Below are positions 4,380 through 17,738 of a stretch of 64,000 nt of DNA, one piece after another; within the stretch, counting starts at the first letter, position 1, and the number at the start of each line of letters is the position of its first letter. Location of the stretch: positions 1,674,001 to 1,738,000 of the forward strand of contig NZ_CP156989.1 in NCBI RefSeq assembly GCF_039880525.1. Reading direction: 5' to 3'. Source of the DNA: Agrococcus sp. ProA11. Its GTDB lineage: Bacteria; Actinomycetota; Actinomycetes; Actinomycetales; Microbacteriaceae. A program made the translations under genes and the position numbers. The notes under the pieces were generated by a model that saw only the letters and a program-made list of their open reading frames with translations, searched no databases and had not been told where the DNA came from.

Positions 4380-6350
4380 TCAGAGCGCCGCGGGCAGCAG
4401 CAGCTCGGCGGTGAGACCGCCGCTGTCCCCCGCCCGCAGGCGCACCGATCCGCTGTTGCGGCGCGCGAGCTCCGAGACGATCGCCAGACCGAGGCCCGTG
4501 CCCTCGACGTTGTCGCGCTCGGCGCTCGGCGCTCGGTAGAAGCGCTCGAAGGCGTGCTCGATCTCCTCGTCGCGCATGCCCGGCCCACTGTCAGCGACCA
4601 CCATGCGCACCGCGTCGCCCTCCTGGTGCGCGGTCAGGTCGATGCGCCCGCCCTCGGGGGTGAACTTGCACGCGTTCACGAGCAGGTTGGAGAGCATGCG
4701 GCTGGCATCGTGGCGGGCCGCGAAGACGACGTGGTCGCCCGGCGCCATGCGCACGGCGATGCGCTTCCGCTCGCTCACCACCTGCAGGTTCGCCGCGACC
4801 TCGCTGAACAGCTCGTCCGTGCGCACGCGCTCCGGGTGCACCTGTGCCGCGCCGCCGGAGAGCCGGCTGAAGGTCAGCAGATCCTCGACGAGCTCCGACA
4901 GGCGCTCCGCGTTCCGCGCGATCACCTGCACCCAGCCGCGCTCGAGATCGCTCAGCTCGGCGCCATCGGAGAGCAGGCCCGCGTAGCCGACGATGCTGGT
5001 GATCGGGGTGCGCAGCTCGTGGCTGGTGGTGATGAGGAAGTCGTCCCGCTGCCGCTCCAGCTCTGCGCGGATCGACTTCGCGGCCTCGCGCTCGACCTCG
5101 GCCTCGATCTGCATCTGACGCGCGCGCAGGATCGTCGTGACGTCGAGCATCTGCACGGTGATCCGGTGGTCGCCGCCGACCACGGCGTTGGCCGCGACGG
5201 TGATCGTGCGGCCCCGGTCGGTGGTGACGGTCACCTGCTCGCCCGACCGCAGTGCCGCCGCCGCGGCGGTGCGCAGCGGCCCGTTCCAGACCCCGTCGCT
5301 CAGCTCGGCAGCCAGCATCGCGCTGCCGGTGCGGTTCACCCAGCGCACCCGCGTCGCATCGTCGGCGCGCTCGGCGATGACGAGACCGATGCTGGCGTCG
5401 ATCACGCCGCCCGTCAGCAGCCGGTTGGCGGCCTCCACCTGCCGCGCGAGCGCGCGCAGCTCGTACTGCGCCGACGAGAGCACCACCACGGTGGCGGCCA
5501 CAGTGACGAGCAGCAGCTCGAACATCGCGACGCGGCCCGTCAGGTCGAGCACCAGCTGACGGAAGGGCCCGCCGCTGTCGAGCGTGAGCACGAGCATCAG
5601 CAGCGAGGCCGCGATGGTCTGGATGAGCACGAAGCGGATCGGGAACCGCAGCGCTGCCCACGCGAGGATCGGGAATGGCGCGAACGCGAACGGCAGGGTC
5701 GCCTCTGGCTGGAAGACCAGCACGACGACCGCTGCGAGGATCGCGCTCTGCACCACCATCTCGATCCGGCCCGCCTGCACCGGGATCGGACGAGGCAGCG
5801 CCCCGATGGGCGCGAGCAGGCTCACGGCTGCCGCGTGCGAGGCGGCGACCAGCGGCAGCGTGGGCCAGAAGGCCCTGCCGTCCAGCGCCGCGAGGCCCGC
5901 GGCCGCGAGCAGGCCGACCACCGCGGCCCCGGCTGCGACGGCAACGACGAATCGCAGACCGGCGCGCAGCGACGACAGCTCGAATCGCCCAGCGCGCCCG
6001 AAGAGGATCGCGCCGATCACCGCGACCTCCGCCGCGTTCGCGAAGCCGAACACCACCGATACATCCCACGGTCTGCCGCTCGCCGCATTCGCCAGGATCG
6101 TGACGCCGAGCACCAGCAGCACCACGTGCGGCAGCCGAGCCGGAGGCTGCAGCAGCGCGAGCAGCACCGAGAGTCCCGCGGCCGGCCACCACACGGCGAC
6201 CGTCGTGCCCGCCGGCGCGAAGACGACGCCGAACACCGCGGTCAAGAAGATGGCGAGCGCCGCCACGAGCCACGACCACCAGGACAGCGTCGGGCGCGGT
6301 GCAGCCTGACGGTCGGCGTAGGGCGCCTGTCCATCGTCAGCGATGCTCAC
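4380..6350 (-). CDS. MASE1-type sensor histidine kinase (orphan)
   Basis: The product is 656 residues. The first ~300 form a multi-pass membrane region of about eight segments that resembles a MASE1 sensor. A short coiled linker and PAS-like stretch follow. The HisKA box TTSHELRTP carries the phospho-acceptor His444, and the ATPase domain has NLLVNACKF, DSGPGMRD and GTGLGLAIV. No response regulator lies next to it, so it must signal to a regulator elsewhere. The GTG at 6350 has GGGGGC just upstream. The frame stays open to 6584 through a tandem repeat, but that stretch looks non-coding. The stop lies 3 bases from the stop of the convergent PLP-enzyme gene. Confidence 0.87.
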   Translation of the reverse strand: MSIADDGQAPYADRQAAPRPTLSWWSWLVAALAIFLTAVFGVVFAPAGTTVAVWWPAAGLSVLLALLQPPARLPHVVLLVLGVTILANAASGRPWDVSVVFGFANAAEVAVIGAILFGRAGRFELSSLRAGLRFVVAVAAGAAVVGLLAAAGLAALDGRAFWPTLPLVAASHAAAVSLLAPIGALPRPIPVQAGRIEMVVQSAILAAVVVLVFQPEATLPFAFAPFPILAWAALRFPIRFVLIQTIAASLLMLVLTLDSGGPFRQLVLDLTGRVAMFELLLVTVAATVVVLSSAQYELRALARQVEAANRLLTGGVIDASIGLVIAERADDATRVRWVNRTGSAMLAAELSDGVWNGPLRTAAAAALRSGEQVTVTTDRGRTITVAANAVVGGDHRITVQMLDVTTILRARQMQIEAEVEREAAKSIRAELERQRDDFLITTSHELRTPITSIVGYAGLLSDGAELSDLERGWVQVIARNAERLSELVEDLLTFSRLSGGAAQVHPERVRTDELFSEVAANLQVVSERKRIAVRMAPGDHVVFAARHDASRMLSNLLVNACKFTPEGGRIDLTAHQEGDAVRMVVADSGPGMRDEEIEHAFERFYRAPSAERDNVEGTGLGLAIVSELARRNSGSVRLRAGDSGGLTAELLLPAAL

Positions 6351-6402
6351 GCCCCCAACGTACGCACCGAAGTGCGATCTGCCCAGCAGCGCCGCCCGGC
6401 GA

Positions 6403-6456
6403 CGCCCGCTCGCCCGCTCGCCCGCTCGCCCGCTCGCCCGCTCGCCCGCTCGCCCG
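6403..6456. repeat. Octanucleotide tandem repeat
   Basis: Six full copies of CGCCCGCT plus a partial copy run head to tail from 6403 to 6456. They sit 53-106 bases upstream of the histidine kinase GTG, in the gap shared with the divergent DUF3054 gene. An 8-base unit is prone to slippage and would change promoter spacing or reading frame. Confidence 0.95.
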
Positions 6457-6460
6457 AGCC

Positions 6461-6530
6461 GAGGACGGATCGGCCACATGTCCCCAGCGGAGGACAGATC
6501 GGCCACATGTCCCCAGCGGAGGACAGATCG
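6461..6530. repeat. 29-bp direct repeats with GTCCCCAGC core
   Basis: Two adjacent 29-bp copies (6461-6489 and 6490-6518) differ at one base, and a third partial copy begins at 6519. Each starts GAGGACRGATC and ends GTCCCCAGCG. A related sequence occurs at 35745-35780 in another intergenic gap, so this is a dispersed element rather than a local accident. Function unknown. Confidence 0.9.
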
Positions 6531-6618
6531 TCCTCGCCCCGCGACATCTCCTCCGTTCGCGACGCGCAGCCGCGGCCGCGGCAACCGGGGCCCACCGCAC
6601 CGCCACTACGGTCGGGGC

Positions 6619-7032
6619 ATGCGAACGACTCGACCCACGACATCCGCCACCTCGATCCTGCTCGCGCTGGCGCTCGACGCGGCGCTCGTGCTCGGCTTCG
6701 CCGCCGCGGGGCTCGCGAGCCACGGCAGCGGGGTGCTCTCCGCCGGCGGCATGGCCATCGCCACCACCGCCATGCCGTTCCTGGTCGCGCTGATGCTCGG
6801 CTGGCTGGTCGGTCGGCTCTGGCGGGCGCCGCTCGCGCCGATCCGCACCGGACTGCCGATCTGGCTGGTAACCCTGACGGGCGGCATGCTGCTGCGCTTC
6901 GCGACCGGGCAGGGCACCGCGCTCCCGTTCGTGATCGTCGCGGCGCTGACCCTGCTGGTGCTGCTGGTCGGATGGCGCGCGGCTGCGAGCTCGCTCGCGC
7001 GGCGGCATGCTCGCGGGCGCACCGAGGCGTAG
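6619..7032 (+). CDS. DUF3054 family membrane protein
   Basis: This 137-residue protein is almost entirely membrane-embedded, with four hydrophobic segments separated by short loops and a basic Arg-rich C-terminus. Length, topology and motifs such as GWLVGRLWRAP fit the actinobacterial DUF3054 family, whose function is unknown. The ATG at 6619 is only a few bases after TACGGT, so the message may be nearly leaderless. It is divergent from the histidine kinase and convergent with the PAP2 gene. Confidence 0.75.
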   Translation: MRTTRPTTSATSILLALALDAALVLGFAAAGLASHGSGVLSAGGMAIATTAMPFLVALMLGWLVGRLWRAPLAPIRTGLPIWLVTLTGGMLLRFATGQGTALPFVIVAALTLLVLLVGWRAAASSLARRHARGRTEA

Positions 7033-8909: not shown

Positions 8910-9350
8910 TCACTGCTCGCGGCGCGTGCGTGCCCGCCAGCGGCGTCGCAGCGCATCCCAGGCGCCGGTCGACCAGAGGGCGAGCGCGATGAGCACGGGC
9001 TGAAAGAAGAGCCGACCGAAGCGGGCCGCGTCGCTGTCGAGACCGAAGCCGTCGCGCTCCTGCAGCCACTGCGACACGTTGCCGGGGAACACCGCGACGA
9101 AGAAGGCCGCGACGATGAGCCCGACCACGACGCGGTACCGCAGCAGCGCGATCAGCGCGAGCCCGAGCGCGATCTCCACCACGCCGGAGGCGACCACGAC
9201 GAAGTCAGGGTCGAGCGGCAGCCACGGGGGCACCTGCGCCTGGAACTCCTGGCGAGCGAAGGTGAGGTGTCCGACCCCGGCGAAGACGAGCGACAGCCCG
9301 AGCAGCACGCGCACGATGTGCTGCGCGAGCGAAACGGGCTGATGGGTCAT
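8910..9350 (-). CDS. DoxX-like small membrane protein
   Basis: This 146-residue protein has four predicted membrane helices. The motif VFAGVGHLTF in the first half is typical of DoxX and related families, which are often tied to redox or sulfur chemistry and have no firm molecular function. The ATG at 9350 opens directly onto the first hydrophobic segment. The longer open frame to 9716 would run antisense through the mycoredoxin gene and is not protein-like. It lies 41 bases upstream of the quinone reductase and could share its transcript. Confidence 0.8.
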   Translation of the reverse strand: MTHQPVSLAQHIVRVLLGLSLVFAGVGHLTFARQEFQAQVPPWLPLDPDFVVVASGVVEIALGLALIALLRYRVVVGLIVAAFFVAVFPGNVSQWLQERDGFGLDSDAARFGRLFFQPVLIALALWSTGAWDALRRRWRARTRREQ

Positions 9351-9425
9351 CTCCACCAGGTTACGGCCGCATGCGCTCGGCGCGCCAACGTGCGGCAGCA
9401 CTCGCCGCTGGCTTACGGTGGATGG

Positions 9426-9680
9426 ATGCAGAACGAGAAGATCCGCGTCTTCGGCGCCGACTGGTGCCGCGACTGCCGCCGCACGAAGCAGCAGTTCGAT
9501 GGCCTCGAGCTGGACTACGAGTACATCGACCTGGAGCTGGACGAGGCTGCCGCCGCCGAAGCGCAGCGCATCTCGGGCCGCATGAACATCCCCGTCGTGG
9601 TCTTCCCCGACGGCACGCACCATGTCGAGCCGTCGAACGCCGACGTCGAGGCGAAGCTGCGGGAGCTCGCGCTCCTCTGA
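9426..9680 (+). CDS. Mycoredoxin/glutaredoxin-like protein
   Basis: This 84-residue thioredoxin-fold protein has the redox motif WCRDC (Cys14, Cys17) after the first strand and a cis-Pro loop in NIPVVVF. Length and motif match the NrdH/mycoredoxin group that reduces mixed disulfides with mycothiol in actinomycetes. The start at 9426 is the second of two close ATGs; the first is in another frame. It is divergent from the DoxX gene, sharing a 75-base gap. Confidence 0.88.
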   Translation: MQNEKIRVFGADWCRDCRRTKQQFDGLELDYEYIDLELDEAAAAEAQRISGRMNIPVVVFPDGTHHVEPSNADVEAKLRELALL

Positions 9681-9716
9681 CCGGTCGCGGCGCTCGTCAG
9701 AAGCGTCGCGCAGCAT

Positions 9717-10562
9717 TCACGCCGCGTCGTCCTCTGACCGCTCGTTGCGCCGGCGGTACTTGAACAGCTCGCCCGTCCGCACGATGCGCAGCGCCGTCAC
9801 GAGCAGCACGCCGCCCAAGAGGTTGAGCAGCAGCACCGGGAAGAACCACAGCAGCCAGTCGAGGTAGGTAATGTCGGCGCCGCTCAGGATCGCCGCGAAG
9901 GCGAAGAGCGTGTCGAGGATCGAGTGGAAGAGCTGGAACCCGGCGAGGATGAACCCGCCTGCGACGGCCGCGACGATCTTCGCCGGCTCCGACTCGGTGC
10001 CCTCCTGCATCCTGGTCATCAGCGTGATGACGGCGCCGCCCAGCAGCGACAGGGCGACGAACTCGCCGTCGATCGGGGCATCGAGGAAGTGCATGGCGGT
10101 CTCGCCCAGCAGCGCGTGCCAGTCCGGGAATGCGAGCGCGACGAGGCCCATCATCATCCAGCCGCCGACCAGGTTGCCCAAGAGCGTTCCTGCCCACAGC
10201 TTGGCGAGCTGACCGGGCGTGCCGTCGCGAGCCACGAGCGCGGCGATCGGCATGAGGAAGTTCTCGGTGAACAGCTCGCTGTGGGCCATGAGGAGCGCGA
10301 TCAGGCCGATGCTGAAGGCGAGCCCGGCGAGCAGCTCGTCACCGGTGGCGTGGAGCGTGCCCAGGTAGGCGATCACGCCGACCCCGACCTCGATGCCGCC
10401 GAGCAGCCCGGTGATCGCGGTCGCGCGGAACGTCCGGTGCAGGCGCTCCGCGCCTTCGCCGACGACGTCCTCGAACTCCGCCTCGAGCGTCTCCTCGACC
10501 GGGCCGTCGTTGGCACCGTCCTCTCGCCGCTGCTGCGCGCGCCGCTCGTGGTCGTCCCTCAC
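9717..10562 (-). CDS. Formate/nitrite transporter (FNT) family channel
   Basis: The 281-residue protein begins with a charged cytoplasmic N-terminus of about 45 residues. Six membrane segments follow, with FNT features such as SELFTENFLMP and LLGNLVGGWMMMG. Members carry small monovalent anions such as formate, nitrite or hydrosulfide; the long charged N-terminus and the motif details do not fix which. GTG at 10562 is the first start after an in-frame stop. It is 130 bases downstream of the ArsA-like ATPase on the same strand, so a shared transcript is possible. Confidence 0.85.
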   Translation of the reverse strand: MRDDHERRAQQRREDGANDGPVEETLEAEFEDVVGEGAERLHRTFRATAITGLLGGIEVGVGVIAYLGTLHATGDELLAGLAFSIGLIALLMAHSELFTENFLMPIAALVARDGTPGQLAKLWAGTLLGNLVGGWMMMGLVALAFPDWHALLGETAMHFLDAPIDGEFVALSLLGGAVITLMTRMQEGTESEPAKIVAAVAGGFILAGFQLFHSILDTLFAFAAILSGADITYLDWLLWFFPVLLLNLLGGVLLVTALRIVRTGELFKYRRRNERSEDDAA

Positions 10563-10692
10563 GGCCGCACCGCCGCGCGTCCCGCGTCTCGCACGGGCAT
10601 CCGATCGCCCGCCACCGTGTCATCCCTCATGCTGGTTCCCCGTTCGCCGAGCCAAGGCTAGCGAGCATCAGCGCGCCGAAGATGGGAGCGGC

Positions 10693-11667
10693 TCACACTG
10701 CCGACTCGACGAGGTGGTCCGCCAGCAGCCCGAGCGCCTCGGCGCCGGCGAGGTCGCCAGGCAGCAGCGGCGTCTGCACGATCGGGATGCCGTCGACCGC
10801 CTCGCGCAGGCGCTCCAGGTGGCGCTCCTCCTGCTCGCGGCGCTCGGCGAGCAGCGCGCCCGCATCCGCGGGCGACCGGCGATTCACCACGATCGCCGCG
10901 GGGTCGATGGCGAGCGCCGTGAGCTGTCGGACGACGTCGATGGACTCCGCGACCGGCAGTCGTTCCGCCACGCTCACCACGATGAACGAGGTCTGCGCCG
11001 GGTCGGTCACGAGGCGGCCCATGAGCGAGAAGCGATCGCGGCGCGCCAGGAGCGTGCGCCGCAGCTCGGCATCTGCGCTCGGCGCCTCGTCACCCCTGCC
11101 GACGACGCTGCGCGCGGCGGCGGCGAAGCGCTCCGACCGGTCGCGGCTCGCGAGCAGCGTCTCCATCCAGGTCGTCAGCTGCGCGGGCAGCGCGAGCAGC
11201 CGCAGCGTGTGCCCGGAGGGTGCGGTGTCGAAGAGCACCAGGTCGTGGCTGTCGCGGCTGGAATCGATCAGCTCCGCGATGCGCTCGAGCACCGCAGACT
11301 CGTGGCTGCCCGGGGCCGCCTTCGCCTGCTCGAGGTGCTGCCGCGCCTGCGCGTGCAGCCGATCGGGCAGCAGCCGCCGCATCGTGTCGGCGACGTTCGC
11401 GAAATGACGCTCGATGGTGGCGTGCGGGTCGATCTCGACGGCATCGACGTAGCCGGCACCATGGGTGCACACGCGCGTCGGCGCATCCGACAGCACCCGA
11501 TCCCACACCTGGCCGAGGTTGTGCGCCGGGTCGGTCGAGACCAGCAAGACCCGGCCGCCGTCGCGGGCACGCGCCAGGGCGAGCGCAGCCGAGACCGACG
11601 TCTTGCCGACCCCGCCCTTGCCGCCGACGAAGAGGATGCGGCGCGAGCGCGCGAGGTTCAGCAGCAT
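10693..11667 (-). CDS. ArsA/Get3-like ATPase
   Basis: This 324-residue ATPase belongs to the deviant Walker A class. GGKGGVGKT lies at residues 15-23, STDPAHN at 44-50 and the switch II motif DTAPSGHT at 147-154, all as in ArsA and Get3. It is a single-domain version, half the length of the duplicated arsenite pump ATPase. No arsB or arsR is nearby. Its start overlaps the end of the small Cys-Cys gene by 10 bases, and that gene follows cstA, so the three are very likely translated together. A role with the CstA transporter rather than arsenic is suggested by context only. Confidence 0.87.
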   Translation of the reverse strand: MLLNLARSRRILFVGGKGGVGKTSVSAALALARARDGGRVLLVSTDPAHNLGQVWDRVLSDAPTRVCTHGAGYVDAVEIDPHATIERHFANVADTMRRLLPDRLHAQARQHLEQAKAAPGSHESAVLERIAELIDSSRDSHDLVLFDTAPSGHTLRLLALPAQLTTWMETLLASRDRSERFAAAARSVVGRGDEAPSADAELRRTLLARRDRFSLMGRLVTDPAQTSFIVVSVAERLPVAESIDVVRQLTALAIDPAAIVVNRRSPADAGALLAERREQEERHLERLREAVDGIPIVQTPLLPGDLAGAEALGLLADHLVESAV

Positions 11668-11954
11668 GCGACGTGGTCCAAGGGCGACGACGGGATCCCG
11701 ATGCGGCGATGCCAGGCATGGAAGTCGCCCCAGACCGCCGGTGCGAGCTCTGCCGAGTAGTAGGCGGCCGGGTCGGGAACGCCCAGCGCCTCCCCCAGCA
11801 CCACGATCATGAACAGGTCGTCCTCGTCGCGCTGCTCGCGCAGCAGCGTCTGCCGGTAGGGGCCGACGTAGAACTCGTGGAGGCCGTCGCGGAACGCGGC
11901 CCAGCGCCGAGAGCGGTGCTCCCGGCGCTGGGCTCGGTCGTCCGTCGAGGCCAT
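11658..11954 (-). CDS. Small protein with C-terminal Cys-Cys (cory-CC-star type)
   Basis: This 98-residue soluble protein has a basic start, a conserved-looking core with YVGPYRQTLLREQ and the acidic DEDDLF, and ends exactly in Cys97-Cys98 before the stop. I recognise it as the kind of protein annotated as cory-CC-star in actinomycetes; the function is unknown. It starts 4 bases after cstA and overlaps the ArsA-like gene by 10 bases. It occupies the slot where many bacteria have the small CstA partner YbdD, but its sequence does not resemble YbdD. A terminal Cys pair could bind metal or form a thiol switch; that is inference. Confidence 0.8.
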   Translation of the reverse strand: MASTDDRAQRREHRSRRWAAFRDGLHEFYVGPYRQTLLREQRDEDDLFMIVVLGEALGVPDPAAYYSAELAPAVWGDFHAWHRRIGIPSSPLDHVACC

Positions 11955-11958
11955 GCGA

Positions 11959-13686
11959 TCAGACGCGCTCGCGCGCTGTCTCGAGCTCGGCGTCCTCGTG
12001 CTCGAGCTCCGCGGGCGCCTTCGCTGCCCGGCGCATTGCCATGACCGCCTCGACCGCCACCCACACGCTCGCCACGATGATGACGACGTCGAGCGCGAAC
12101 AGCAGCCAGTCCTCGTTGCCGGGCGCCGTGAAGCTGAAGAGCTGCTCGATCGCGGCCCAGAACGACATCGCGAAGACGAGCACGAGCGGGATGAGCGCCG
12201 GCAGCGGGTTGCGTCGCTTGCGAATGAGCATCACGGCGATGATCGACAGCGAGAGCGAGGCCATCAGCTGGTTCGTGGTGCCGAACAGCGGCCAGATGCG
12301 CAGGCCGCCCTCGCCGCCCAGCCCCTGCGAGAACGTCAGCCCGAGGCCGACGACCACGACGACGAGGGTCGCGGGGATCTTCCCGATCTTGACCTTCACC
12401 GCGTCGCCGATCTCCTGCACGATGAATCGCAGCAGTCGCATGCCGGTGTCCATCGTGGTGGCGGCGAACAGCACCGCCATCGTGGCGAGCACGGTGGCGC
12501 TCAGCGCGGCGGGCAGCCCGAGACCGTTCTCCATGAGCGCGCCACCACCCTGCACGAAGGCGTTGACGCCGCCGGCACCGAAGGAGCTGTAGATCTCCTC
12601 CCAGGCAGCGGTCGACTGGATGCCGCCGACCACCGCGAGGATCGTGCCGAGCGAGAGCAGTCCCTCGCCGACGGCGCCGAAGTAGCCGACGAACCGAGCA
12701 TCCGTCTCCTTGTCGATCTGCTTCGACGTCGTGCCGGAGGAGACCATGCCGTGGAAGCCGGAGATGGCGCCGCACGCGATGGTGACGAAGAGCAGCGGGA
12801 TCATGCTGGGCGTGCCCTCTGGCAGGTTCATGTTGATCATCGGGGCGACGATGTCGGGCTTGATATCGCCGAACAGCGTGGCGATCACGACCGAACCGAA
12901 GAGCAGGATGAGCCCGACGAAGAGCTGCACGCCATTGATGTAGTCGCGCGGCTGCAGCAGCACCCAGACGGGCAGCAGCGACGCGATCGCGCCGTAGACG
13001 AACAGCGCCAGGATCCAGAACGTCGCCGGCGTCATGCCGAGGAACGACTCGGGCAGCACGACGGGGTTGGCGCTGCCGATCACGATCAGCCCGTACAGCG
13101 CCACCACGCCCACGACCGTGACGGGGATGAGCGGCCAGCGCATGCGGTAGACGGCGACGCCGACGAGCAGTGCGACGATGATCGCGCCCCAGGTCGGGAT
13201 GACGGCGGTCGGCGTGCCGATGAGCAGGTTCTTGATCACCACGGCGAAGGCGGCGATGACCATCAGCAGCAGCAGGAAGATAACGATCAGGAACAGGTTG
13301 GCGCCGCGCTTGCCGATGTAGCGGCCCGAGAGCGCGCCGATCGAGCGGCCCTTGTTGCGCATGGACGCCCACAGCGTGCCGAGGTCGTGCATGCCGGCGA
13401 AGAAGACCGTGCCGATCGTCACCCACAGCAGTGCCGGCAGCCAACCCCAGATGACGGCGATTGCGGGGCCGACGATCGGGGCTGCGCCCGCGACCGACGT
13501 GAAGTGATGGCCCCAGAGGATGAACTTGTTCGTCGGCATGTAGTCGACGCCATCGCGCAGCTCGTGAGCCGGCGTCCGGAATGCCGGGTCGAGCCGGTAC
13601 ACCCGATTCGCGAGGTACTTGGAGTAGATGAAGTAGCCGGCGGCGAACATCGCCAGGCCGATGAGCATGAGCACCAGGGAACCCAT
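11959..13686 (-). CDS. cstA: CstA carbon starvation protein, pyruvate/peptide transporter
   Basis: This 575-residue polytopic membrane protein has the CstA pattern throughout, including WGHHFTSVAGAAPIVGPAIA, SMRNKGRSIG, GFHGMVSSGTTSKQ and PLFGTTNQLMA. CstA proteins import pyruvate and possibly peptides when carbon is scarce. The start is set by GGGGAG seven bases before the ATG at 13686; the frame upstream is not conserved-looking. It ends with an acidic C-terminal tail. It leads the operon with the Cys-Cys protein and the ArsA-like ATPase. Confidence 0.93.
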   Translation of the reverse strand: MGSLVLMLIGLAMFAAGYFIYSKYLANRVYRLDPAFRTPAHELRDGVDYMPTNKFILWGHHFTSVAGAAPIVGPAIAVIWGWLPALLWVTIGTVFFAGMHDLGTLWASMRNKGRSIGALSGRYIGKRGANLFLIVIFLLLLMVIAAFAVVIKNLLIGTPTAVIPTWGAIIVALLVGVAVYRMRWPLIPVTVVGVVALYGLIVIGSANPVVLPESFLGMTPATFWILALFVYGAIASLLPVWVLLQPRDYINGVQLFVGLILLFGSVVIATLFGDIKPDIVAPMINMNLPEGTPSMIPLLFVTIACGAISGFHGMVSSGTTSKQIDKETDARFVGYFGAVGEGLLSLGTILAVVGGIQSTAAWEEIYSSFGAGGVNAFVQGGGALMENGLGLPAALSATVLATMAVLFAATTMDTGMRLLRFIVQEIGDAVKVKIGKIPATLVVVVVGLGLTFSQGLGGEGGLRIWPLFGTTNQLMASLSLSIIAVMLIRKRRNPLPALIPLVLVFAMSFWAAIEQLFSFTAPGNEDWLLFALDVVIIVASVWVAVEAVMAMRRAAKAPAELEHEDAELETARERV

Positions 13687-13777
13687 CGAGTTCTCCCCTT
13701 CTGTCGCCGCACCGTCGCGGAACCGATCCGGCACCCTCGTGCCTTGCACACGACCCTAGTGGAAACTGCGGATCTGC

Positions 13778-14737
13778 TCAGGATCGACGCAGGCGCGCGC
13801 TCTGCCGCGACAGCAGCGTCACCAGTTCATAGATCGCGTGGCTCGCGGCGATGCCGGTCATCTGCGCGTGATCATAGGCCGGCGAGACCTCCACCACGTC
13901 GGCGCCGACGATCGCCTTGTCGGCGAGGCTGCGCAGCATCCGCAGCAGCTCGCGGCTCGTCATGCCGCCTGCCTCCGGCGTCCCCGTCCCCGGCGCGTGC
14001 GCTGGGTCCAGCACGTCGATGTCGATCGAGATGTAGAGCGGCTTGTCACCGACCCGCTCGCGCATCCGCTCGATCGCCGCGGCCACGCCGTGCTCCTCCA
14101 GGTACTCGCTGGTGATGATCGAGAAGCCGAGCCGCGCGTCGTCCTCGAGATCCTGCTTCGAGTAGAGCGGGCCGCGGGTGCCGACGTGGCAGGAGGCCGT
14201 CAGGTCGATCAGGCCCTCCTCGCTCGCGCGACGGAAGGGCGTGCCGTGCGTGATGGGGGCGCCGAAGTAGGTGTCCCAGGTGTCGAGGTGCGCGTCGAAG
14301 TGCAGCACCGCGACCGGTCCGTGCTGCTTCGCGACCGCCCGCAGGAGCGGCAGGGCCATGGTGTGGTCGCCGCCGATCGCGACGATCCGGTCAGCCCGCT
14401 CCCCCAGCTCGGTCGCGGCGCGCTCGACCTCGGTGACCGCCTCGGCGATGTCGAAGGGGTTCACCGGGATGTCCCCGGCGTCGACGACCTGCGCGTCCGC
14501 GAACGGCGAGGCATCCTGCGCCGGGTTGTAGGGGCGCAGCAGGCGCGACGACTCCCGCACATGCGATGGCCCGAACCGCGTGCCGGGGCGGTAGCTCACC
14601 CCGGTGTCGAACGGGATGCCGACGATGGCGATGTCCGCGCGCGGCACCTCCTCGATGCGCGGCAGGCGCGCGAAGGTGGCGATCCCGGAGTAGCGGGGGT
14701 TGACGGATGCGTCGACGGGGCCGATGGGCTCGGTCAT
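13778..14737 (-). CDS. Agmatinase/guanidinobutyrase-type ureohydrolase
   Basis: This 319-residue ureohydrolase carries the full binuclear manganese set: His125 in GGDHT, Asp148/His150/Asp152 in HFDAHLD and the Asp pair in [11 protein letters not shown]. It hydrolyses a guanidino group to urea plus an amine. Agmatine, 4-guanidinobutyrate or a related acid are candidates, and the neighbouring ThDP enzyme favours a guanidino acid. AAGGAGG sits 8 bases before the ATG at 14737. It is 50 bases downstream of the ThDP enzyme and probably in the same operon. Confidence 0.9.
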
Positions 14738-14787
14738 GGGTTGGTCCTCCTTGGTGGGTGCGGGCGCGGCGGGCGTCGCCGGGCCGC

Positions 14788-16404
14788 TCAGAGCTGCCGC
14801 TGCGGGATGTGGATGAGCTGCACGCCGCCGGCGGCGACCGCGGCTCGGATCGCATCCGGGATGTCGGCGGCGGTCGCGACCCGCGTGCCCGTCGCACCGA
14901 AGGCGGTCGCGAGCGCCGCCCAGTCGGGCTGCACGAGGTCGACGCCGATGGGGGCGATGCCCCGATCGAGCTCGTTCTGCTTGATCTCGGCGTAGCCACC
15001 GTTGTCGACGCAGACGATCGTGAGGTCGAGTCGCTGCTCGATGGCGGTCGCGAGCTCGTTGACGCAGAACATCAGCGCGCCGTCGCCGATGACCGTGACC
15101 ACGGGACGCTGCGTCTGCGCCACGCGGGCACCGATCGCCGCGGGAAGGCCGTAGCCGAGGGTCGCGTAGGTCGGCGTGTAGAGCAGCGAGTGCGGGCGCG
15201 ACTGGCGCAGCACGTTTGCCAGCGCCAGGTAGACGATCTGCGAGGAGTCGCCGGCGACGATCGCGTCCTCCGGCAGCGCCGAGGCGATCACCTTCGCGAG
15301 CGCCACCGTCTCCGGCAGCGCTTGGCGCACCTCCGCCTCGATCGCCTCGCGCACCGCGGTGAGGCCAGGAGCCGCCGCGCCCGAGTCGGGCAGCGCGTCG
15401 AGGATCGCCGCGAGCACGGCGCTCGCGTCGCCGACGATGCCGACCGTGGCCGCCAGGTTCTTGTGCAGCTGCGTCGCCTCGATGTCGATGCGGATGACCC
15501 GACCGCGCGCCTCGAGCGACGGGGCCCACAGCTCGGCCTCGCCCAGCTTCGAACCCACCACCACCAGCACATCCGCCGCCTCCGCGACCAAGCGCGCGGC
15601 CTCGAGGCGCAGGTTCGAGCCGAGCGAGAGCGGGTGGTGCTCGTCGAGGGTGCCCTTGCCGTTCAGGGTGGTGAGCACCGGAGCGCCGAGGCGCTCCGCG
15701 AGCGAGGTCACTGCTCGCGCAGCGCTCGTCGCGCCGCCGCCCGCGATGATGACGGGGGCTGCGGCGTGCTCCAGCAGCGAGGCGGCTTCGAGCACCGCGC
15801 TGCGCTCGCCCGCCGCTGCCTCGGGTGCGGGCCGTGCCGCACGCGCTGCGCTCGGCACGTCGGCCGCTGCCTCGAGCACGTCGAGCGGGATCTCGATGTG
15901 CACGGGGCGCGGACGGCCGCTGCGGAACAGCGCGAATGCGTCGTGCACGGCGTCGACCGCCTCCGCCGCGGTCGTGACGCGGCGCGACCATGCCGCGACC
16001 GCGTCGGCCATGGCCGAGGCGTCCTTCGTCTCGTGCAGCGTCCCGACGTCGGCGAACTCGGCTCCGAGCGCGACGCCCGGCGACAGCACGATCATGGGCC
16101 GCGACTCGCAGAACGCGGTGCCGACGGCGCTCATCGCATTCTGCAGGCCGGGGCCGGAGGTGGTGATGACGACGCCCGGTAGCCCGGTCTGCTGCGCCCA
16201 TCCGTCGGCCCCGTAGCCCGAACCCTGCTCGTGCCGATTGGTGACCGCGCGCATGCCCAGCGCCTGCAGCGGACGGTAGAGCTCGAGATTGTGGGTGCCG
16301 GGGATGCCGAACACGGCCGTCACCCCGTAGGCGCGGATCGTCTCGAGCACCGCGCGGGCCGTGGTGTCCGTGTAGCGGTCGTCGGTTGCGGCTGCTCCCG
16401 TCAC
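14788..16404 (-). CDS. ThDP-dependent enzyme, candidate 5-guanidino-2-oxopentanoate decarboxylase
   Basis: The 538-residue protein has the acetolactate synthase/benzoylformate decarboxylase architecture. The N-terminal PYR domain carries the catalytic Glu59 in NRHEQGSG, a central domain has IIAGGGA, and the C-terminal PP domain has GDGALMF and VDNGGY for ThDP and Mg. The GTG start overlaps the MFS stop as GTGA, so the two are coupled. Standing next to a ureohydrolase, it could decarboxylate 2-ketoarginine in the arginine transaminase route, as AruI does. That substrate is inferred from context; an acetolactate synthase-like activity remains possible. Confidence 0.82.
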
Positions 16405-17738
16405 GGCAGCGGGTTCGCGGTCGTGTCGGTGCGAGGCGTGAACGACTCGGTCACGGGCGCCTCGTCGGAGTGCTGCGGCGCGAACCACGTGCAGGCGAAG
16501 GCGATGGCCGCCATGCCGGCGAACATCACGATCACCGACCAGATCGATCCGGTCCACTGCACGAGCATGGTCGCGAACCAGGGCGAGAAGCCCGCCCAGA
16601 TGGCGGCACCCAAGCCGTACGACAGCGAGATCGAGGTGTACCTCGCCTGCGGGCGGAACATCTGGGCGAGGATCGCGGCGATCGGCGCGTACGTGGCACT
16701 CATCACGATGCGCACCAGCGAGGCGAAGAGGAAGATGAGCGGCTCGATCTGGCCCGGCATGATCAGCAGGAACGGCGCGAAGGTGAGCAGCGACGTGACG
16801 AGGCCGATGTACATGATGTTCTTGCGGCCCCACTTGTCGCCGAGCCAGGCGATCGGCAGCGTCACCAGGAACTCGACGAACGATGCGACGGTCATGGCGT
16901 CGAGGATGACCCGCTCGTCCAGCAGGATCGGCTCGTTCGTGGCGTACGCGGTCGCGAAGGTGGTGGCGAGGTAGTAGCCGCCGGTGGAGATCGGCAGGAT
17001 GCCGATGCCCAGCAGGATCGGCTTCCAGTTGCGACGAAGTGCGAAGGCGAGCGGCATGGACTGCTTGCGGCCCTCGACCTTGCTGGCGAAGACGGGCGAC
17101 TCCTCAACCCGATAGCGCACCCAGAAGCCGACGCCGATCAGCACGATCGAGGCCAGGAACGGGATCCGCCAGCCGCCGTCGATGATGAAGTCATCGCCCA
17201 TGCGCGCCATGATCGCGAAGATGCCGGATGCCAGCAGGGCGCCTGCCGGGTTGCCGAGCTGCGTGAAGCCGCCGTAGAAGGTCTTCGACTTCTCGGGTGC
17301 GTGCTCGACGCTCATGAGCACGGCCCCGCCCCACTCCCCGCCGACGGCCAGGCCCTGCAGCGCTCGCAGCGCGATGAGCAGGATGGGTGCGAGGATGCCG
17401 ACGTCGCTGTGGGTCGGCAGGCAGCCGACCAGCACCGTCGCGACGCCCATCAGGAGCAGGGTCATCACGAGCGAGACTCGGCGCCCGAACTTGTCGCCGA
17501 TGTGCCCGAACAGGATGCCGCCGATGGGACGCACGAGGAACGCGACCGCGAAGGTGGCGAATGCCGAAGCCGTCTCGGCGAGCGGATCGTCGCTGGGGAA
17601 GAAGATCGGTCCGAACACGAGCGCCGCAGCGGTCGCGTAGACGTAGAAGTCGTACCACTCGATGGTGGTGCCGACGAAGGCCGCGATGCCGGCCCTGCGG
17701 GCCCTGCTGGTCGTGGACCGCGTGTCGTTCGAAGTCAT
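16401..17738 (-). CDS. MHS-family metabolite:H+ symporter
   Basis: This 445-residue MFS protein has 12 predicted membrane segments. The N-terminal motif [17 protein letters not shown], the loop [10 protein letters not shown] and [11 protein letters not shown] are hallmarks of the metabolite:H+ symporter family (ProP/ShiA/KgtP-like), which imports carboxylates, betaines or amino acid derivatives. AAAGGAG lies 6 bases before the ATG at 17738. It is the first gene of the operon with the ThDP enzyme and the ureohydrolase and is divergent from the Lrp-type regulator, so its substrate is probably what that pathway degrades. Confidence 0.9.

Follow-up and report, generated by a model that had tools for sequence, protein, structure and literature searches.

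A conserved gene trio for CstA, a Cys-Cys-ended small protein, and an ArsA/Get3-type ATPase in Agrococcus sp. ProA11

In Escherichia coli, the carbon starvation protein CstA has a small partner, YbdD, that ends in two cysteines, and the related transporter BtsT pairs with YjiX. Deletion of ybdD cuts pyruvate uptake to 20% (PMC5847655), and transport by CstA is inhibited by protonophores and depends on a proton gradient (PMC7730263). A different arrangement was described in 2010 by Castillo and Saier, who found cstA together with an arsA homologue 26 times, in 24 cases also with a protein of about 90 amino acids called CstX; they propose that ArsA energizes CstA, with CstX as a possible linker, and state that carbon-starvation operons hold no arsenic resistance genes (PMC2963123). 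Here, we describe such a locus in Agrococcus sp. ProA11, within a window of 64,000 nucleotides (contig NZ_CP156989.1, positions 1,674,001 to 1,738,000), wherein cstA is followed by genes for a Cys-Cys-ended protein and for a single-domain ArsA/Get3-type P-loop ATPase.

The genes are all encoded on the minus strand, in the order cstA, small-protein gene, and ATPase gene. The cstA gene (11959..13686) encodes a CstA/BtsT-family transporter of 575 amino acids (PF02554, 432.4 bits for a cut-off of 27), and its ATG is preceded by GGGGAG, which reads as a ribosome-binding-like sequence. A gap of 4 bases (11955-11958) separates it from the gene for a 98-residue protein ending in Cys97-Cys98 (11658..11954). 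This protein is a full member of the NCBIfam family cory-CC-star (NF041419, 111.4 bits for a curated cut-off of 80), matching positions 2-80 of the 80 in the model, and is called CC-star below. The ATPase gene (10693..11667) encodes 324 amino acids (TIGR00345, 208.5 bits for a cut-off of 135; PF02374, 201.7 bits) and overlaps the CC-star gene by 10 bases (11658-11667, ATGCTGCTGA), which encode Cys-Cys-stop in the CC-star frame and Met-Leu-Leu in that of the ATPase. Thus, the codons of Cys97-Cys98 (TGC TGC, 11661..11666, minus strand), followed by the stop TGA, overlap the ATPase start ATG (11667-11665). The first-pass annotation had recorded the three genes, the Cys-Cys end, the gap, and the overlap correctly at these positions. 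It had also noted that arsenic genes are absent nearby, and none was seen among the flanking open reading frames (ORFs) scanned between 4380 and 18841, which are not every ORF of that region. An Rfam scan of 9000-17000 gave no match at the gathering threshold.

The layout agrees with that of the cstA-cstX-arsA loci of Castillo and Saier: a CstA, a protein of about 90 amino acids, and a single-domain ArsA of about 330 amino acids, with no ars genes. The system is therefore of a real and widespread kind that was already described in 2010, and the central idea of the first-pass annotation, in which the ATPase makes CstA part of an energy-coupled transport system, is that published proposal. Judging from size and position, CC-star is probably CstX. 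A word search of the available text of the 2010 paper returned neither YbdD nor DUF466, and its passages on cysteine concern arsenic or ArsA. The NCBIfam entry gives CC-star a name and no function, and this name was not found in the open-license literature searched. No later test of the energization of CstA by ArsA was found in that literature, most of which was unopened.

We surveyed 246 genomes of the same phylum (Actinomycetota), 67 of which have CstA. CC-star matches at E <= 0.001 occur in 20 genomes, all of which have CstA; the curated cut-off is exceeded in 17 of these, and of the remaining three, G153 and G156 carry relatives that lack the Cys-Cys end. CC-star lies beside CstA in 19 of the 20, the remaining case being a contig break. 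YbdD occurs in 26 genomes, always together with CstA and beside it in 24. Adjacency to an ATPase gene was judged among the matches listed, which comprise 150 rows down to about 101 bits. On this basis, CC-star adjoins an ATPase in 19 of 20 genomes (the exception, G153, has an ATPase at a contig end), whereas none of the 26 YbdD genes is beside one; counted per CstA gene, an ATPase stands beside 18 of the 19 that are linked to CC-star and beside 0 of the 49 others. The 67 CstA genomes consequently comprise 26 with YbdD, 20 with CC-star, including one genome that has both, each adjoining its own CstA, and 22 with neither. The statement in the first-pass annotation that CstA normally pairs with YbdD thus holds for 26 of the 67 genomes, but not as a norm.

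Outside the phylum, 83 loci were compared, of which 80 come from Bacilli genomes and three from plasmids of Paracoccus, Pseudochrobactrum, and Cytobacillus. The 80 are the best 80 of at least 590, and all are Bacilli by their titles because the first row of the query was from Bacilli. In all 83 loci, from Bacilli and Alphaproteobacteria, the small protein ends in Cys-Cys and the ATPase gene follows that of CC-star, and CstA is encoded upstream in 81, the remaining two stopping at a contig end. The unit is found in Bacillota, Pseudomonadota, and Actinomycetota. Among archaea, the control genome Haloferax volcanii gave a match below the cut-off, and one haloarchaeal plasmid CstA has neither partner within 6 kb.

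Six related loci of about 11-13 kb, five from the same family and one from the same class, were searched for the genes that flank the operon in the window. The FNT, arginase, thiamine pyrophosphate (TPP) enzyme, AsnC, DoxX, and ADH genes were not found there, and one of the six loci has an MFS match. The unit consists of these three genes. The adjacency of the three is far beyond chance, and their recurrence together in 20 genomes of the phylum and in 83 further loci, on which the first-pass annotation had made its proposal depend, supports the view that cstA, CC-star, and the ATPase form a functional unit.

The unit can contain additional genes. In 21 of 81 Bacilli loci, cstA and the CC-star gene are separated by a fourth gene, small and about 95 codons long (for example L053:4633-4920, L054:4654-4971, and L062:4687-4974), with no NCBIfam match at 1e-5 for these examples; in L069, this gene and that of CC-star share one open frame. 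On the Cytobacillus plasmid (L053:7783-10201), the operon is followed by a metallopeptidase gene and then by genes for a metal-sensitive regulator, TusA, a DsrE-like protein, and an MBL-fold protein.

The CC-star protein resembles YbdD in one respect only. In both systems, a CstA-family carrier is accompanied by a small partner that ends in Cys-Cys, but the E. coli ybdD gene has no adjacent ATPase gene. The window protein has no Pfam match at E <= 1, including PF04328 for YbdD/YjiX, and comparison of the CC-star and YbdD profiles with hhalign gave a probability of 9% with similarity confined to the last 17 columns. Homology of the two is thus unsupported, and their bodies are not detectably related. 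The earlier view that the Cys-Cys protein is unlike YbdD is borne out for the body, but it fails for the tail. Among the best 20 of the 26 YbdD proteins of the phylum, 13 end in Cys-Cys and seven in Cys-Pro (L036, L041-L043, L045, L047, and L048), and therefore the penultimate cysteine is the constant one. CC-star proteins end in Cys-Cys in all 23 of the loci L003-L025 as well as in all 83 loci outside the phylum, none of which has a selenocysteine (Sec) at this end, and in 93 of 106 CC-star rows the tail holds the only cysteines. These 106 rows, which also served for the profile and hydropathy comparisons, represent 97 distinct sequences.

The known relatives of YbdD place this tail in a wider context. 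Proteins of the DUF466 (YbdD) family that end in Cys-Sec have been reported, with a proposed redox activity (PMC4607533), and such proteins also appear in the tables of PMC9312934 and PMC13188914. The corresponding family of KCU-star/DUF466 selenoproteins (NF033934), with its Cys-Cys or Cys-Sec C-terminus, is like CC-star in the tail. Two YbdD proteins of the phylum match its model at 4e-9 and 2.2e-9, below the cut-off, but the window protein does not match it, since NF041419 was the only NCBIfam match at E <= 1. Of what is added here to the earlier description, the thiol tail common to YbdD and CC-star is of most interest; we did not meet it in the literature searched, most of which was unopened. 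This shared tail, which ends in selenocysteine in some YbdD relatives, suggests that thiols have an as yet unexplained role in transport by CstA.

It might be argued that the tail is merely a by-product of the 10-base overlap with the ATPase gene, which is present also in the Paracoccus and Pseudochrobactrum plasmid copies. This explanation was rejected because the Cys-Cys end is kept without the overlap, both in the Cytobacillus copy, where a gap of 22 bases separates the genes, and in Tenuibacillus (L062). The idea that the tail is the target of the ATPase, which the first-pass annotation had suggested, was likewise abandoned as a general rule, given that tail and ATPase dissociate in both directions. 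Specifically, YbdD proteins carry the tail with no adjacent ATPase, and ATPases occur with proteins that lack it in two genomes. In G156, a single cstA precedes a pair of CC-less relatives of CC-star, after which come two ATPases in tandem, and G153 has the same order across two contig ends (L134, L135, and L136). The two ATPases of G156 carry the switch-II motifs DLVPLGHALYYL and DTAPTANARRLL in place of DTAPTGHTLRLL. The tail therefore tracks CstA and not the ATPase, and from these sequences it appears to go with being a CstA partner. Beside the CstAs that have no partner, examined at 20 loci of the 22 partnerless genomes, the only ORFs for a small Cys-Cys-ended protein were judged to be chance; the other two genomes have CstA fragments.

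The two kinds of system also differ in their CstA proteins. In a tree of 68 rows, which include one gene twice and leave out most Bacilli rows, the CC-star-linked CstAs, that of the window among them, form one branch together with three partnerless CstAs (support 100/99). The YbdD-linked CstAs form a separate branch with two partnerless CstAs (100/100), and the place of long branches, including the pair from CC-less loci, is uncertain. The three partnerless CstAs within the CC-star branch have neither CC-star nor the ATPase, which were most simply lost jointly, and thus CstA can persist without both. Within the classes that comprise more than a few rows, no CstA cysteine was found that could serve as a class-specific thiol partner of the tail. 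A single cysteine is kept without exception in 131 of 131 CstA rows, but it is universal, being present also in CstAs that have no Cys-Cys partner.

The ATPase is a single-domain member of its family. AlphaFold predicts a GET3/ArsA fold with a predicted local distance difference test (pLDDT) value of 87.9 and a predicted template modeling score (pTM) of 0.86, and the closest solved fold to this predicted structure is that of archaeal TRC40/Get3 (3zq6 chain A, template modeling scores 0.83/0.89). By comparison, the structure predicted for CC-star is of low confidence (pLDDT 68.9), and for neither CC-star nor CstA was a solved structure found by sequence at E <= 0.1. The window ATPase reaches 136.7 bits with the double-domain model TIGR04291, far below its cut-off of 650. 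The P-loop GGKGGVGK and the motifs STDPAH and DTAP[T/S]GHT show at least 90% conservation across 109 linked ATPase rows (106 distinct, including three rows from CC-less loci), a complete motif set. Whereas E. coli ArsA is a double-domain protein with three important cysteines, which according to the same text are not conserved in single-domain homologues (PMC2963123), the window ATPase has a single cysteine, C67, and 70 of the 109 rows have none at all. The linked ATPases are thus likely to be active, but to lack the ArsA cysteine site and, as described below, the CxxC motif of Get3. In a quick FastTree run, midpoint-rooted and with supports not shown, 40 linked ATPases group separately from 19 further ArsA/Get3 rows taken from the phylum, as well as from four rows of CC-less loci; of the 20 non-linked regions taken, L171 gave no row and the row from L172 joins the CC-less ATPases.

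Based on these observations, we tentatively favor a reading in which the three proteins make up one transport system, consisting of a CstA carrier, a thiol-tailed subunit like YbdD, and an ATPase by which the carrier is energized or gated. CstA would carry a small carboxylate across the membrane, most likely pyruvate as suggested by its E. coli relatives. CC-star might be a cytosolic accessory subunit with the same role for its clade of CstA as YbdD has for the E. coli protein, and its C-terminal thiol tail would act at or on CstA. The ATPase would also be cytosolic and is probably dimeric; it would bind the complex of CstA and CC-star, and its binding and hydrolysis of ATP could energize or gate transport, as ArsA does for ArsB. 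In that pump too, the proposed partner of an ArsA-family ATPase is a carrier other than an ABC protein. The physical complex, the cytosolic site, the dimer, the substrate, the site of action of the tail, and the direction of transport are all inferred, as is the role of ATP in energization or gating rather than in assembly.

The covariation of the three proteins is consistent with this arrangement. Partial correlations of distances are lowest between CC-star and the ATPase (0.29-0.32) compared to 0.44-0.66 for the other pairs, for 90 loci and likewise for 14 non-Bacilli loci. This hints weakly that CstA is the common partner of the two. If the proposal is correct, then an ATPase has been placed on a carrier family that is proton-driven in E. 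coli, which was the suggestion made in 2010 and is sharpened by the present survey.

Several points weigh against this reading. No experiment on any member was found in the literature searched, and distance correlations among genes that are inherited together are weak evidence for contacts. An energizer is not needed in principle, because E. coli CstA runs on the proton gradient and ybdD has no ATPase gene beside it. In addition, since the ArsA cysteines are not conserved and most linked ATPases are cysteine-free, any coupling could not be a copy of that of ArsA in detail. Finally, a conserved operon is equally well explained by an assembly factor.

This last possibility, in which the ATPase serves assembly or targeting as a dedicated Get3-like chaperone that delivers or matures CC-star or CstA and has no part in transport, is the main rival and nearly as likely as energization or gating. 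The closest folds are those of archaeal and eukaryotic Get3, and by sequence green-algal ArsA1 is also close. Moreover, CC-star and the ATPase are absent together where CstA stays and are doubled together in G153 and G156, as would be expected if CC-star is the client. However, the tail handling for which Get3 proteins are known, and which the first-pass annotation had invoked, is made unlikely by two features. First, CC-star proteins do not appear from their hydropathy, a rough test, to be tail-anchored clients: the best 19-residue windows range from 0.87 to 1.39 (the window protein has 1.38), values over the last 30 residues rise no higher than 0.03, and none of the 106 rows reaches the transmembrane-like value of 1.6, although one CC-less relative reaches 1.60 at 31 residues from its end. 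(CstX, by contrast, is described in the 2010 text as having a single transmembrane segment, a prediction from another program.) Second, although the ATPase shares the fold of Get3/TRC40, the CxxC motif, which binds zinc in archaeal Get3, occurs in 0 of the 109 linked ATPase rows but is present in the archaeal Get3s 3zq6 and 3ug6. The segment after switch II is also poorer in methionine, averaging 1.8 residues compared to 5 and 7 in the two archaeal proteins, while its hydrophobic fraction is about equal (0.288 versus 0.288 and 0.344).

An unlikely alternative to both is that the terminal cysteines switch CstA through redox chemistry or metal binding, with the ATPase recycling or loading the tail. 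The Cys-Sec-ended DUF466 proteins, the two YbdD proteins near the KCU-star model, the strict conservation of the Cys-Cys end in proteins that mostly have no other cysteine, and the invariant CstA cysteine are all in keeping with a switch of this kind, as is an oxidoreductase ORF that, in 23 of the 83 loci, begins close to where the ATPase gene ends. Nevertheless, the invariant cysteine is shared by CstAs that have no Cys-Cys partner, the ATPases have no conserved cysteine, YbdD can end in Cys-Pro, and CC-less small proteins occur with ATPases. The redox coupling considered in the first-pass annotation is thus indirectly supported for the CstA partner proteins, through the Sec-ended relatives of YbdD, but not as a property of the ATPase.

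It is less probable still that the ATPase is a regulatory subunit that senses ATP and ADP and opens or closes CstA according to the energy state of the cell, with hydrolysis not powering transport. The nucleotide-site motifs are complete and CstA and YbdD are tied to carbon starvation in E. coli, in keeping with such a sensor, but by sequence this function is inseparable from energization. That the protein is an arsenical-resistance ATPase with a chance neighbor is very improbable: it does belong to the ArsA family, but its adjacency to CstA is conserved, it has a single domain, most of its relatives here are cysteine-free, and ars genes are absent from the three annotated plasmid loci as well as from the carbon-starvation operons of the 2010 report.

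If the preferred transport system is taken one step further, the thiol tail (Cys-Cys, Cys-Sec, or Cys-Pro) might be the common working part of YbdD and CC-star, and the added ATPase would make a proton-driven carrier ATP-driven or ATP-gated, with coupling through the thiol-tailed subunit. We regard this extension as speculative and rather doubtful. Natural controls are available in the form of CstAs with YbdD, with CC-star and the ATPase, with duplicated CC-less partners, and with no partner.

Some features of the neighborhood deserve mention. The oxidoreductase ORFs that start near the end of the ATPase gene are of the ADH/quinone-oxidoreductase type, and that of L062 (6221-7213) shares 4 bases with the ATPase gene; its best model, with a score below the cut-off, makes it PIG3-like. 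In the window, the ATPase gene is followed by a gene for a formate/nitrite-family channel (PF01226, 121 bits; 9717-10562, minus strand), which was not found near the operon in the six relatives. About 1 kb beyond the ATPase gene, a glutaredoxin-like protein of 84 residues with a WCRDC motif (PF00462, 47 bits) is encoded on the plus strand at 9426-9680.

On the other side of the operon, the minus strand at 13778-16476 carries an agmatinase gene, which scores over the cut-off of TIGR01230, next to a gene for a TPP enzyme that is closest to 5-guanidino-2-oxopentanoate decarboxylase (471.7 bits for a cut-off of 500). These might be an arginine-catabolic pair beside cstA, and the pair was not found beside cstA in the six relatives. 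Farther away, at 6337-6790 and upstream of a histidine kinase gene, is a repeat-like stretch whose translations contain GRAGERAS and CGRSVLRWGHVADPSS repeats.

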